Shown: positions 49,482-55,741 of the stretch, in pieces | Layout: the number at the start of each line of letters is the position of its first letter | Position numbering within the stretch: position 1 is the stretch's first letter | Assembly: GCF_003425985.1 (NCBI RefSeq) | Contig: NZ_CP022985.1 | Location: 1,091,501-1,155,500 of the forward strand | Direction: 5' to 3' | DNA length: 64,000 bases | Source: Mariniflexile sp. TRM1-10 | GTDB taxonomy: Bacteria > Bacteroidota > Bacteroidia > Flavobacteriales > Flavobacteriaceae | Position numbers and translations under genes: made by a program | Notes under the pieces: generated by a model | Told to the model about the DNA's origin: nothing | What the model saw: the letters and a program-made list of their open reading frames with translations, nothing else | The model's database searches: none

Positions 49482-49934
49482 TTAAGTGGTGCTAAGCTTT
49501 CTTTTTACAAGTAGTAAATGGTCGCACACCAATACAACTTCGCCTCTTTGGTTTATAATTTCTACATGTTCGGTTACCGTACCCATTTCGGGTCGTTTAG
49601 CATCTCCTTTTTCTGAAATGGTTATTTCCGAATGAATGGTATCACCAATATGAACTGGTTTTACAAATCGTAATCTATCATAGCCTTTTGAAAAGGCTTC
49701 CGGGTTGATCTCGGAAGCTGTTAAACCAATACCGATACTAAAAATCATGGTACCATGTGCAATACGCTGACCAAAGGGTTGTGTTCTACACCATACTTCA
49801 TCCATGTGGTGTGGAAAAAAATCGCCTGTGTGCCCAGCATGAACAACAAAGTCAGTTTCTGTGATGGTTCTTCCTAAAGTAACTCGTTTTTCGTTTAATT
49901 GATAATCCTCGAAAAATGTTGATTTGAAATACAT
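49482..49934 (-). CDS. MaoC-like (R)-hydratase
   Basis: A 150-residue hot-dog-fold protein with the hydratase pattern HAGHTGDFFPHHMDE (Asp38, His42/His43) and QRIAHGTMIFSIG. This family hydrates or dehydrates enoyl-CoA-type thioesters, including mesaconyl-CoA. With two class III CoA-transferases in the same operon, it probably acts on a CoA ester of an organic acid made here. It lies between the Gfo/Idh gene (12 bp) and the MFS gene. Confidence 0.85.
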   Translation of the reverse strand: MYFKSTFFEDYQLNEKRVTLGRTITETDFVVHAGHTGDFFPHHMDEVWCRTQPFGQRIAHGTMIFSIGIGLTASEINPEAFSKGYDRLRFVKPVHIGDTIHSEITISEKGDAKRPEMGTVTEHVEIINQRGEVVLVCDHLLLVKRKLSTT

Positions 49935-49946
49935 ATGCTTTTATTA

Positions 49947-51014
49947 TTATAATTCTGTTAATGAAACGCCACCTGTTGAATCACTTATGTAACAAGCTTC
50001 AACAACCTTCATGGTATCCAATACATCTTGAACGCTGGCATGTAATGTTTTATCTGAGCCTTCTTTGAAACGCATCAAATTGGACATGGTGCCTATAAAT
50101 GCCTCGGGAAACCAAGAACCTTCGAGATTCAGGGTCTTCCACTCATAGTCTTTTTCTTCTTCGGCAATGGTGTATTCGAAAGCATCTGGTAAGCCGTCTG
50201 GGTAATTCATTAACAAGCCCATTTTTGCCTTAATAGCTCCTTTTGTACCTTCCCATTTGATATAGCTTTCTTGGTGTTTTGTATTAAATTCATGATCGTG
50301 GTTGGTATTTATTTTTACGCTCATAGTGTCGCCATAATCTAAAATAATAGTAGAACGACAAGACGACAAATCTTTTAAGGGATGTTTTGTTGTTCTAGCC
50401 ATAACACGTTTGGGATTCCCTAAAAACGAACGGATACAGTCAATATAATGCACACTATGAAATAGAATTTCTAACCGTGGATGCTGTTTTATTACGGGAA
50501 ACAATTCCCAAGGTGTTTTTACAGTAACTTTAAATTCCATATCGTATAAATCACCAATCAATCCTTGATCAATCATATGTCTTGCGGCACTTACAAACGA
50601 CGCAAAGCGTAATTGAAAGTTAATGGCTGCTACTAAATTTTTACGTTCGCAAACAGCAACAATGTCTTTAGCCTGCTTATAATCGTTACCCATTGGTTTT
50701 TGAATAAGCACCGCGGCGCCATTCGGCAATTGCTCCAATATTTCAATGTATTGGTCTGGCAACACCGTAATATCGTAAACCGCATTTTTGGGTGCCTGCT
50801 TTACGGCATCTGCTACACTTTCAAAGACATTTGGAATGTTATGGTTTTTTGCCATTTCATGTGCTTTAGACATGGTACGGTTGGTTATTCCAAATACTTC
50901 AAAACCTGCCATCTTATAAGCTGGTAAATGAGCATCTTTTACAATACCACTTGCACCAATTATAATTATGGGTTGCTTGGTTTCTGGTAATAATGGTTTG
51001 TAGGTAACAGTCAT
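49947..51014 (-). CDS. Gfo/Idh/MocA oxidoreductase in CoA-transferase operon
   Basis: A 355-residue cytoplasmic NAD(P)-dependent oxidoreductase. The Rossmann loop is IIGASGIVKDAHLP, IQKPMG replaces the usual EKP, and the catalytic part has FHSVHYIDCIRSF. Its start overlaps the preceding solute-binding-like gene by 4 bp (ATGA), indicating coupled translation. It is likely to oxidise a sugar or hydroxy acid feeding the CoA-thioester steps. Confidence 0.85.
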   Translation of the reverse strand: MTVTYKPLLPETKQPIIIIGASGIVKDAHLPAYKMAGFEVFGITNRTMSKAHEMAKNHNIPNVFESVADAVKQAPKNAVYDITVLPDQYIEILEQLPNGAAVLIQKPMGNDYKQAKDIVAVCERKNLVAAINFQLRFASFVSAARHMIDQGLIGDLYDMEFKVTVKTPWELFPVIKQHPRLEILFHSVHYIDCIRSFLGNPKRVMARTTKHPLKDLSSCRSTIILDYGDTMSVKINTNHDHEFNTKHQESYIKWEGTKGAIKAKMGLLMNYPDGLPDAFEYTIAEEEKDYEWKTLNLEGSWFPEAFIGTMSNLMRFKEGSDKTLHASVQDVLDTMKVVEACYISDSTGGVSLTEL

Positions 51015-53445: not shown

Positions 53446-54591
53446 TTATTTTCTTAAAAATTGCTCATAAATCTTCGCATTGTCTTCACCTACTTTAGGA
53501 GCTGCTTTGGTAGCACTTAAAATGTCTCCATCGATTTTAATAGGACTTCTGGTGGTGACCATAGTTTTACCTGCTGAATTCTTTACGGTTTGTTTTAGCT
53601 GTAAATCATCCATAAAAGCCTTACTATTTAGATCATTATAGTTTAATACTTTTTCACACCACATGCCATTTTCCCGCAACAACTTGATCCAATGGTCTGA
53701 ATTTTGAGTCGTTATTTTTTTACGCAATATTTTTCGAATCGCTGCCCTACCCGTAAACCACGTTTTCTTATCGGAATACTTCCTCAAATCAACGTCAATA
53801 ATACCTCCTAATAAAAGCAGGTCACCCATAGCAATGGCTAAATAACCATCTAAAGTTTCATAAATACCATAAGGTGCACTTAAAAAGGCATGTGCGCTTC
53901 CTTTTACATTTCCTCTGTCTGCTAATTTACCGCCGTTATTTAAAAATATAGTTAGCGCTTCAAACTGCACATCTAGAACGGATTCCAACAAGCTAACCTC
54001 AACGGAAACACCCTTTCCTGTTTTTGCGCGTTTAAGCAATGCCGCCAAAATACCTTGCACAAAATGATTGCCACACATTAAATCGGCAACTGCCAATCCA
54101 AAAGGCACGGGACCCTGACTACTTTTTCCGCTTAACCACGTTAAACCAGAAAGCGATTGCACTAATAAATCCTGCCCTGGTTTTTTTGCCCACATACCGA
54201 TATTGCCATAACCTGTTATGGAACCATAAATTATTTTAGGGTTGACGTTTAAAACATCTTCAAAAGTCAATCCTATTTTCTCCATCACACCAGGCCTGAA
54301 ATTATGGGTCATAATATCCGCTTTGGCAATTAGTTTTTTTACATCTTCTAAATCTGCTGGATTTTTAAGATCGGCAGCAAAGGATTCCTTATTTCTATTT
54401 ATGGTATGAAAAAGCAAACTACTATCATCAACAAACAAATCCTTGATGCTTAATTGTCTACAGGCCTCCCCTTTTACAGGACGCTCAATTTTAATAACAC
54501 GCGCACCCAAATCGGCTAGTTTTAAACCTGCTGAAGGACCAGCCAAAAACTGCGAAAACTCTAATACCAATAAACCTTCTAATGGCTTCAA
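53446..54591 (-). CDS. Class III (CaiB/BaiF) CoA-transferase 2
   Basis: 381 residues, a paralogue of the preceding entry with the same motif spacing: FSQFLAGPSAGLKLADLGA, NRNKESFAADLK, THNFRPGVMEKIG, and Asp170 in GLAVADLMCG. Both copies keep the catalytic aspartate, so neither is an obvious dead subunit. It starts 10 bp after the second solute-binding-like gene. Two tandem CoA-transferases usually mean a heteromeric enzyme or two successive acid substrates. Confidence 0.9.
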   Translation of the reverse strand: MKPLEGLLVLEFSQFLAGPSAGLKLADLGARVIKIERPVKGEACRQLSIKDLFVDDSSLLFHTINRNKESFAADLKNPADLEDVKKLIAKADIMTHNFRPGVMEKIGLTFEDVLNVNPKIIYGSITGYGNIGMWAKKPGQDLLVQSLSGLTWLSGKSSQGPVPFGLAVADLMCGNHFVQGILAALLKRAKTGKGVSVEVSLLESVLDVQFEALTIFLNNGGKLADRGNVKGSAHAFLSAPYGIYETLDGYLAIAMGDLLLLGGIIDVDLRKYSDKKTWFTGRAAIRKILRKKITTQNSDHWIKLLRENGMWCEKVLNYNDLNSKAFMDDLQLKQTVKNSAGKTMVTTRSPIKIDGDILSATKAAPKVGEDNAKIYEQFLRK

Positions 54592-54601
54592 AATTTATTA
54601 T

Positions 54602-55741
54602 TTAATGTGTTAGTGATTCTCTATAAATTGAATTCATTTTATCGACCGCCACTTCAATGGAAACTTTCTCGGAAACTGCTTCATGAATTACGGGACTTGC
54701 TTCATCTTGAAAATGCATATAGCCATAATATTGCGGACGCATGGTGGCTTCATCTAAAGTTTGCAACGTATCTTTAAAAAAGTCTTTGCATTGGTTGTTC
54801 ACATCATCATTTAACCATGCTTTTCTGTGTCCCGGCTGCCCTCCAAATTCAAAATACAAACCTGATTGCGTTTTTTCTGAAGCCGTGAATTCGGCATACT
54901 TCATGGCAACTTCGGCATACTTGGTTTTTGAAGACACCGCAATACCAGCACCACCTAAGGTAGAACGAAGCCTTTTTCCCTTAAAAGTTACCAAACCTCC
55001 AGCTTTTAAAGTATGATCTGCATAATTCTTTTTAGAATAATTTGAATACCCATAATTGAACGGACTGTAAACAATATCATCCGTTTGCGTCATGCGTTCA
55101 TAAATTTTGATAGGATTCATTTCTAAACAAAAGGAAGGTGCTAAATCTACCAACTCTTTATACTTTTTAATGGCGTCTATCATAATATGTCGCGGGGCAA
55201 CTTCTGTTTTGTTTTCAAAAACATCACCACCCAATGCTATACACATCATGTAGTGATGCATCAATGTATCTATAGGAATGGATGCAAATGCAACTTTCCC
55301 TGTTTTAGTTAATTCCAGAAGTTCCTCCCAAGTTGTGGGGATTTGTATATTGTGTTTACTTATTAAATCTTCTCTCCAAGTCGCAATGGGTGTTGCCGCA
55401 TCTGTTGCCAAGGTCCATTGTTTATTATATACATGATAACTAGCATGTGATTTCCCGACACTATTTTTGGCTAATTCATTAATGAATTCAGCATTTAAGT
55501 AATCATCAAAAGGCAATAGAAGCTTATCCTTTGCTGCTATTGAAACATGGGGATTGTCCATAATTAACAAATCGTAATTATTTACCAAATCACTAAGGGA
55601 AGCATCTGCAAAAGCTTGTAAGGAACGCTTTTCCCATGTAATTCTTACATCGGGATTTAGCTCTTCAAATCGTTGTGCTGTGGCAACTACAGAGGTAAAA
55701 CCTCGTGTATGATTCCAAGCTATTCCTTTTAAGTTTATCAT
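54602..55741 (-). CDS. Solute-binding-protein-like protein without signal peptide (2)
   Basis: 379 residues in the UgpB/MalE-type binding-protein pattern: WNHTRGFTSVVATAQRFEEL, NYDLLIMDNPH, QWTLATDAATPIATWREDL, IPTTWEELLELTK, GGAGIAVSSKTKYAEVAMKYAEF. The chain starts MINLKGIAWNH with no hydrophobic segment, and an in-frame stop lies three codons upstream, so it stays in the cytoplasm. It is the first gene of the CoA-transferase operon, after a gap with a REP hairpin and a type C element. It differs strongly from the first binding-like protein, so the pair is not a recent duplication. Confidence 0.8.
   Translation of the reverse strand: MINLKGIAWNHTRGFTSVVATAQRFEELNPDVRITWEKRSLQAFADASLSDLVNNYDLLIMDNPHVSIAAKDKLLLPFDDYLNAEFINELAKNSVGKSHASYHVYNKQWTLATDAATPIATWREDLISKHNIQIPTTWEELLELTKTGKVAFASIPIDTLMHHYMMCIALGGDVFENKTEVAPRHIMIDAIKKYKELVDLAPSFCLEMNPIKIYERMTQTDDIVYSPFNYGYSNYSKKNYADHTLKAGGLVTFKGKRLRSTLGGAGIAVSSKTKYAEVAMKYAEFTASEKTQSGLYFEFGGQPGHRKAWLNDDVNNQCKDFFKDTLQTLDEATMRPQYYGYMHFQDEASPVIHEAVSEKVSIEVAVDKMNSIYRESLTH

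Follow-up and report, generated by a model that had tools for sequence, protein, structure and literature searches.

A widespread module of leaderless solute-binding-fold proteins and family III CoA-transferases points to a new intracellular job for a sugar-binding protein family

INTRODUCTION

What do two proteins with the fold of sugar-importer binding subunits do in a gene cluster without an importer, among enzymes of coenzyme A (CoA) chemistry? The question is raised by a locus of Mariniflexile sp. TRM1-10, which lies in a stretch of 64,000 nucleotides (contig NZ_CP022985.1, positions 1,091,501 to 1,155,500), referred to here as the window. Between window positions 49482 and 55741, the minus strand encodes two solute-binding proteins (SBP1 and SBP2), two family III CoA-transferases (A and B), a Gfo/Idh/MocA oxidoreductase and a MaoC-type hydratase. 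A sequence-only reading had proposed that the two binding-fold proteins are subunits, substrate chaperones or new enzymes that work with the CoA-transferases on an acid activated as a CoA ester. Searches of the open literature in PMC, which leaves subscription journals largely outside its scope, found no apparent description of such a system.

We surveyed the genome as one complete contig of 4,858,325 base pairs (bp), together with related loci in other organisms. In short, the gene set is real and widespread, and its features point to a new intracellular job for a family of sugar-binding proteins. Relatives of SBP1 and SBP2 carry annotations such as "extracellular solute-binding protein" and "multiple sugar transport system substrate-binding protein", and those examined have no export signal. 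If SBP1 and SBP2 are cytosolic enzyme subunits, a widespread misannotation would be corrected, the binding-protein fold would gain a role as a substrate-presenting module, and there might be a CoA-dependent route for plant or algal deoxysugar acids in at least eight phyla.

THE GENE CLUSTER AND ITS ENZYMES

Read from 5' to 3' on the minus strand, the cluster begins with SBP1 (54602-55741; 379 amino acids; PF01547/PF13416), a predicted cytoplasmic protein with a CUT1-type solute-binding fold. It is followed by CoA-transferase A (53446-54591, with a TTG start), CoA-transferase B (52240-53379) and SBP2 (51011-52240; 409 amino acids), likewise a predicted cytoplasmic CUT1-type protein, recognised by Pfam, by its predicted fold and by fusions in relatives. 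The Gfo/Idh/MocA oxidoreductase (49947-51014; 355 amino acids), the MaoC-type hydratase (49482-49934; 150 amino acids) and a FucP-like symporter (48175-49470) complete the series. Pfam matches confirm the six genes where the sequence-only reading had placed them, and its two overlaps are also there: 1 bp between CoA-transferase B and SBP2, and 4 bp between SBP2 and Gfo/Idh. Since gaps of 10 bp (SBP1 to CoA-transferase A), 66 bp (A to B) and 12 bp (Gfo/Idh to MaoC) separate the other pairs, the six genes are not one continuous overlap chain. A palindrome-like stretch (53408-53430) stands in the longer intergenic gap of the cluster, and a short motif (55855-55869) in the other longer intergenic gap; with the mismatches permitted, neither has a second copy in the window.

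Both CoA-transferases match PF02515 over their full length and above the cut-off (291.7 bits for A and 305.9 bits for B), and they are the two PF02515 genes found in the whole genome. Each has the Asp170 to which the sequence-only reading had drawn attention, and this catalytic Asp is present in 124 of 125 CoA-transferases of the related loci, the remaining one ending before the Asp position. The hydratase (PF01575, 71.2 bits) carries GDFFPHH at residue 37, which we take to be the Asp/His dyad hydratase motif, and GD.[FY]PHH occurs in all 48 close MaoC relatives. A second MaoC-like type, found for example in the Verrucomicrobia loci L020, L021 and L024, lacks GD..PHH in 16 of 16 copies and has LDMHPYV or similar at that place. 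The window Gfo/Idh protein has both Pfam domains (PF01408/PF02894) and the motifs QKP and HSVHYID; QKP is kept in 53/53 Gfo/Idh proteins and H..D in at least 49 of the 53, and we assume (E)KP and H..D to be motifs of the family. On sequence evidence, the CoA-transferases, MaoC and Gfo/Idh thus keep their catalytic motifs.

CONSERVATION ACROSS GENOMES

A scan of one genome per species gave 445 stretches with SBP1 relatives, of which the best 80 were read. Because close relatives are among these loci, their counts cannot be treated as independent. Gene calling was mechanical, each gene being taken from its first start codon, and overlaps depend on the choice of start. The SBP1 gene was called in 78 of the 80 loci (all except L038 and L039). 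The relatives of SBP1 span at least eight phyla. At E <= 1e-3, at least 5630 proteins matched SBP1 among the best candidates scored, and 1473 matched SBP2; many of the weak matches may be ordinary transport proteins.

The sequence-only reading had suggested a search for conserved co-occurrence without ATP-binding cassette (ABC) permeases, and such co-occurrence was found: a family III CoA-transferase is present in 77 of the 80 loci (two copies in 48, one in 29), and CUT1-like permease genes in two (L052 and L083). In the locus L030, which has no CoA-transferase, the contig ends near SBP1, which may explain the absence. Directly 3' of SBP1, within 200 bp, is a CoA-transferase in 64/78 loci and a MaoC gene in 8/78, the commonest spacings being overlaps of 4 and 8 bp. 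Around SBP2, a CoA-transferase lies directly upstream and a Gfo/Idh gene directly downstream, each in 26 of 32 cases. Chance adjacency was rejected as an explanation, as the pairing is kept in draws of 296 Bacteroidota and 288 Verrucomicrobiota genomes. SBP2 occurs in ten of the former (the present genome included), always in the order CoA-transferase, SBP2, Gfo/Idh; 14 of the latter have an SBP1-like match, with a CoA-transferase in 10 of these 14 short loci. SBP1 was found in seven of 60 genomes of relatives, again counting its own. Such a patchy spread of both proteins is as expected of an accessory catabolic island.

Three architectures recur. Architecture A, in Verrucomicrobiota, has Gfo/Idh, SBP1, in some cases MaoC, CoA-transferase and a MaoC-like gene. 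Architecture B, in Bacteroidota and including the window, has SBP1, two CoA-transferases, SBP2, Gfo/Idh, MaoC and often FucP. Architecture C, in Zobellia, Tamlana, Gilvimarinus, Neiella, Hirschia and their kin, has SBP1, two CoA-transferases, an enoyl-CoA hydratase and an AldA-like dehydrogenase. A hydratase is encoded in 72/80 loci, MaoC-like of either type in 51 and crotonase in 22, with both in L065. More distant relatives are found on plasmids (143 records, five opened). For example, a Martelella plasmid relative (35% identity) stands in the order Gfo/Idh, CoA-transferase, SBP, MaoC. A CoA-transferase-like frame, read by eye, is directly upstream of the S. meliloti relative (34% identity), and the Persicobacter and Rufibacter relatives show the type-B gene order. 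In Flavobacterium sp. UMI-01 (L065, 9986-13567), crotonase and AldA-like genes directly follow SBP1, and a CoA-transferase is absent from the stretch examined.

LOCATION OF SBP1 AND SBP2

By Pfam and by their AlphaFold (AF2) models, whose predicted local distance difference test scores (pLDDT) are 95.6 for SBP1 and 94.3 for SBP2, both proteins have the SBP_bac_1/8 fold of CUT1 binding proteins. The best PDB fold matches of SBP1 are SmoF, MalE3 and TMBP, and the 50 PDB matches shown for each model all come from binding proteins, with or without a fused carrier. Mapping the invariant SBP1 residues onto the MalE binding site gave no more than a weak profile match (probability 10%, E 0.003). In both fold and Pfam family the two proteins belong with CUT1 importer subunits, and two loci do contain CUT1-like permease genes. 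Could SBP1 and SBP2 be ordinary importer subunits whose permeases are located elsewhere or have been lost, or relics of such subunits?

The beginnings of the proteins speak against this. An in-frame TAA lies three codons before the ATG of SBP1 and a TGA two codons before the start of SBP2, as the sequence-only reading had said. In the models the first strand of the fold begins at residue 2 (SBP1) and residue 4 (SBP2), which leaves no room for a leader. Judged from these stops and models, neither protein has a signal peptide or lipobox. The relatives agree. Even in the longest possible frame, the one used for this comparison, SBP1 relatives start at a median of seven residues before the domain and at most 12 residues before it in 57/78. 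A hydrophobic stretch precedes the domain in four of the 78, three times in doubtful extensions of 37-71 residues and once in a 15-residue leader (L034). SBP2 relatives have at most 21 residues before the domain (31/31) and no hydrophobic stretch there (0/31). As transport controls, SBP_bac_1 proteins were sought in eight genomes, giving 30 loci; 15 loci with a recognisable ordinary binding protein, from four of the genomes, and four SBP1-type loci were counted, and 11 in which the references recognised no binding protein were left out. A hydrophobic leader is present in 15/15 of the ordinary controls and a permease in the short flank in 14/15; in the four SBP1-type loci, a CoA-transferase is present and a permease absent.

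The permeases, too, are missing. Five BPD_transp_1 proteins are encoded in the genome and none in the window, in line with the earlier statement that no ABC permease is near. A search of the complete genome found no CUT1 permease, the BPD_transp_1 proteins giving one 22-bit match at most against MalF/G and YcjO/P. Genome-wide there are three SBP_bac_1 proteins: SBP1, SBP2 and one of 323 amino acids, which adjoins a permease pair (genome positions 2129849-2131298) and presumably belongs to a phosphate system. Nine of ten island-bearing genomes have no SBP_bac_1 frame of more than 323 amino acids outside the island; the tenth, Rubritalea, has one of 505 amino acids, flanked by ATPase- and permease-like genes. 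The orphan-transporter reading was rejected on these genome-wide searches for permeases and SBP_bac_1 proteins, and conservation together with fusion to a cytosolic enzyme (see below) speaks against relics. The ordinary-importer reading is thus largely refuted, and we regard it as very improbable. A cytosolic, non-transport function of SBP1 and SBP2 is strongly supported by their sequences and genomic setting. With no matching ABC permease found elsewhere in the genome, no export signal and strong conservation outside this genome, the sequence-only reading stands on the three points that it had named as able to overturn it.

PARTNERS OF THE BINDING-FOLD PROTEINS

With which proteins would SBP1 and SBP2 work in the cytosol? 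For SBP2, natural gene fusions give an indication. In the locus L012, SBP2 and Gfo/Idh form a single frame of 760 amino acids. Among the best 120 of 289 matches to this fused protein, five are fused clusters of 759-770 amino acids, and the other 115, of 418-454 amino acids, align to 53-55% of the query. Across the four fused sequences seen there are three different junctions and no leader, and the fused protein of the isolate Flavisericum labens has a junction identical to that of L012. A frameshift or assembly artefact was rejected because three junctions occur in four sequences, one of them from an isolate. Gfo/Idh proteins are a family of cytosolic NAD(P) enzymes, although periplasmic members exist. 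Fusion to such an enzyme without a leader supports both a cytosolic SBP2 and a working partnership, which on this evidence appears well supported, and the fusions make Gfo/Idh the best-supported physical partner of SBP2. The core idea of the sequence-only reading, namely that the binding-fold proteins act as subunits, chaperones or enzymes alongside the CoA-transferases, survives these tests and is amended as to the partner of SBP2. It is from gene pairing by itself that we infer SBP1 to be a working partner of the CoA-transferase.

In a phylogeny of 52 proteins (22 SBP1, 13 SBP2 and 17 transport proteins), SBP1 and SBP2 each form a clade with 100/100 support, separate from the transport proteins, whose long branches make the deeper order unsafe. 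The window SBP1 falls among proteins from Lentisphaerota and Verrucomicrobiota (100/100), and the window SBP2 falls among those from Bacteroidota. The island therefore looks mosaic, hinting at horizontal exchange within it. We tentatively propose that importer-type binders were recruited twice independently as dedicated cytosolic subunits of two unrelated enzymes, SBP1 for a family III CoA-transferase and SBP2 for Gfo/Idh. In such a modular architecture the clamshell would select a sugar acid and hand it over to the catalytic subunit.

Two other intracellular roles have to be weighed. SBP1 and SBP2 may be enzymes that evolved from binding proteins (e.g., epimerases, lactonases or dehydratases), each performing one step of the pathway. 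Enzymes with the binding-protein fold exist, such as MqnA/MqnD and THI5. Moreover, 39 SBP1 sequences from at least eight phyla share 65 invariant columns, and in six distant loci (Bacillota, Chloroflexota and others) the median identity of SBP1 to the window (47%) is close below that of the CoA-transferases (53-57%); the values for SBP2, Gfo/Idh and MaoC are 44%, 37% and 64%. However, no known catalytic motif was recognised in SBP1 or SBP2, no binding-fold enzyme is among the PDB matches shown, and in type-B loci both proteins are less conserved than the enzymes. The fusion suggests partnership, though enzymes of the same pathway also fuse. We consider an enzymatic role unlikely, yet worth serious attention. 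Alternatively, the two proteins might sense or buffer ligands in the cytosol and so regulate the pathway from outside catalysis, and an IclR regulator gene is indeed found in 44 of the 80 loci, nearly always on the opposite strand. But IclR already provides ligand sensing, the Pfam matches of SBP1 and SBP2 include no signalling domain, and the fusion partner is a dehydrogenase rather than a regulator, so a sensory role seems improbable to us.

A POSSIBLE ROUTE AND ITS SUBSTRATES

Hints to the substrate come mainly from neighbours in other loci, each family being named from one representative. Besides IclR, the neighbour families in the 80 loci include RhaT (27 loci), crotonase (22), AldA-like dehydrogenase (21), FucP (18), short-chain dehydrogenase/reductase (SDR; 16), L-fuconolactonase-like (14), alpha-L-fucosidase (11), DapA-like (9) and the rhamnose mutarotase rhaM (6). 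None of the representatives of the lactonase, SDR and AldA-like families reached an equivalog cut-off, and their assignments are family-level hints. Together, these neighbours suggest uptake of a 6-deoxyhexose, oxidation to the acid, dehydration and aldol cleavage to lactaldehyde, and thus point to 6-deoxyhexose acids as substrates. Escherichia coli fucI, fucK, fucA, rhaA and rhaD found no match in the 80 loci, and rhaB found one. In three Verrucomicrobia loci (L020, L025 and L027; L020 scanned), a gene for a bacterial microcompartment (BMC) shell protein directly follows the DapA-type gene, a hint that an aldehyde product is processed inside a compartment.

In the window itself, the FucP-like gene encodes a major facilitator superfamily sugar:H+ symporter (TIGR00885, 363 bits, cut-off 280) that is the probable uptake route; in 17 other loci, too, the Gfo/Idh-MaoC end of the module is followed by a FucP-like gene. 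On the 5' side of SBP1, also on the minus strand, are a four-carbon acid sugar kinase-like gene of DUF1537 type (56116-57276; PF07005/PF17042), whose product possibly acts in downstream metabolism, and genes for a PdxA-family dehydrogenase (57276-58301; PF04166, TIGR00557 above cut-off), an iron-containing alcohol dehydrogenase (58568-59722; its best matches include lactaldehyde reductase, under the equivalog cut-off), a sodium:solute symporter of the SSS family (59730-61277; TIGR00813 above cut-off) and a DapA-superfamily aldolase-like protein (61305-62153; NCBIfam dapA/aldolase matches below cut-off). No lactonase is among the subset of window proteins scanned. Next to the cluster, genes for pectin utilisation are found at 33622-37756 (galacturonidase-like, pectin acetylesterase-like and a 674-amino-acid protein that joins a pectate lyase match, TIGR02474 above cut-off, and a pectinesterase match below cut-off in a single chain). 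Within the pectin region there is an IS5-family transposase-like gene (31966-33333; below the equivalog cut-off).

We put forward, with confidence a little short of even, a CoA-cycled dehydration of aldonates by CoA-transferase and MaoC in which SBP1 and SBP2 are cytosolic substrate-binding partners; both the identity of the substrate and the CoA-cycled dehydration are offered as hypothesis. A FucP- or RhaT-type symporter would import the sugar, probably a 6-deoxyhexose such as L-fucose or L-rhamnose that stems from polysaccharides of plants or algae, and the sugar would be oxidized to the aldonate. SBP1 would bind the aldonate in the cytosol and present it to the family III CoA-transferase, which would form the CoA ester. 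MaoC, or crotonase in another branch, would remove water from the ester, and the CoA would be passed to the next acid molecule, as with CaiB/CaiD for carnitine. SBP2 would bind a substrate for the Gfo/Idh dehydrogenase and be physically part of it.

Several observations weigh against this proposal. PMC9813914, the source of the transferase chemistry used here, presents family III CoA-transferases as enzymes that stand alone. The Jannaschia CoA-transferase is on the opposite strand, 4.5 kb from SBP1, and in L037 and L065 the stretch examined contains SBP1 but no CoA-transferase. No fusion of SBP1 with a CoA-transferase was seen in the open frames listed, the longest of which is 618 amino acids. 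In 24/53 Gfo/Idh loci SBP2 is absent from the stretch examined, so the dehydrogenase family does not always need it. Among 19 type-B Bacteroidota loci, SBP1 (48%) and SBP2 (52%) are the least conserved module parts by median identity to the window, compared with 59-65% for the CoA-transferases, 63% for Gfo/Idh and 82% for MaoC; the low value of SBP1 may partly reflect its different ancestry. Relatives of known acid dehydratases, some of them weak, occur in 11/80 loci. They indicate that the module is not a simple replacement of that step everywhere, and the idea that it simply replaces an enolase-type dehydratase is weakened by them. In favour of that idea, in seven of ten genomes the best matches to PF13378, the sole dehydratase family searched genome-wide, reach only 99-111 bits or there are none.

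A further difficulty is linked to another possible use of the CoA ester. Five Mucilaginibacter loci and one Paenibacillus locus have OiaK- and OiaX-like genes next to the module, and the kinase gene adjoins SBP1, together with PdxA, in L011, L012 and L014 as well as in the window. These genes fit poorly with a plain fuconate-to-lactaldehyde route. They would suit an ester made for carbon-carbon cleavage or thiolysis, not dehydration, with a C4 or C5 acid then passing to a kinase and a decarboxylase or PdxA. Against such cleavage, the OiaX and OiaK matches in L049 (517 and 442 bits) are below their cut-offs of 700, the two families occur in just 6/80 loci, and no thiolase is among the families scanned, no search having been aimed at thiolases. 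The window kinase is not among the OiaK matches. We judge cleavage to be quite unlikely and retain CoA-cycled dehydration as the preferred proposal. An Asp/Glu-racemase-family protein accompanies the module along with the OiaX-like RuBisCO-like protein and OiaK-like kinase in L049 (scanned), L055, L056, L063, L070 and L069.

COMPARISON WITH KNOWN SYSTEMS

The carnitine system CaiB/CaiD is the archetype of CoA-cycled dehydration, in which the product can pass its CoA back to a substrate molecule; BaiF/BaiE and FldA are further related systems. The likeness lies in a family III CoA-transferase beside a hydratase, and in architecture C this hydratase is a CaiD-like crotonase (22 loci). Because of this precedent for the combination of transferase and hydratase, the activation of an acid as CoA ester, which the sequence-only reading had also advanced, is less novel than the binding proteins. 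The cluster differs from the E. coli cai stretch, which has no binding-protein gene and no Gfo/Idh gene; no gene of the loci matched CaiB better than the window CoA-transferases did, and the substrates are probably sugar acids.

In other loci, the neighbouring genes include relatives of the lactonase, the mutarotase, the symporter, the SDR dehydrogenase and the DapA-type aldolase of the oxidative L-fucose and L-rhamnose pathways, whereas relatives of their known aldonate dehydratases accompany the module in 11/80 loci only. To our knowledge, the known routes do not include a CoA-transferase, MaoC or two binding proteins. Next to the module, Mucilaginibacter and Paenibacillus have kinase and RuBisCO-like genes akin to the D-apiose genes OiaK and OiaX, albeit with scores under curated cut-offs, and we know of no CoA-transferase or binding protein in the described D-apiose pathway. 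Compared with the binding proteins of CUT1 importers (SmoF, TMBP and MalE3), SBP1 and SBP2 are without a signal peptide and, as a rule, without permease and ATPase genes; instead, they would partner cytosolic enzymes, to which SBP2 is fused in some relatives, and they form clades of their own.

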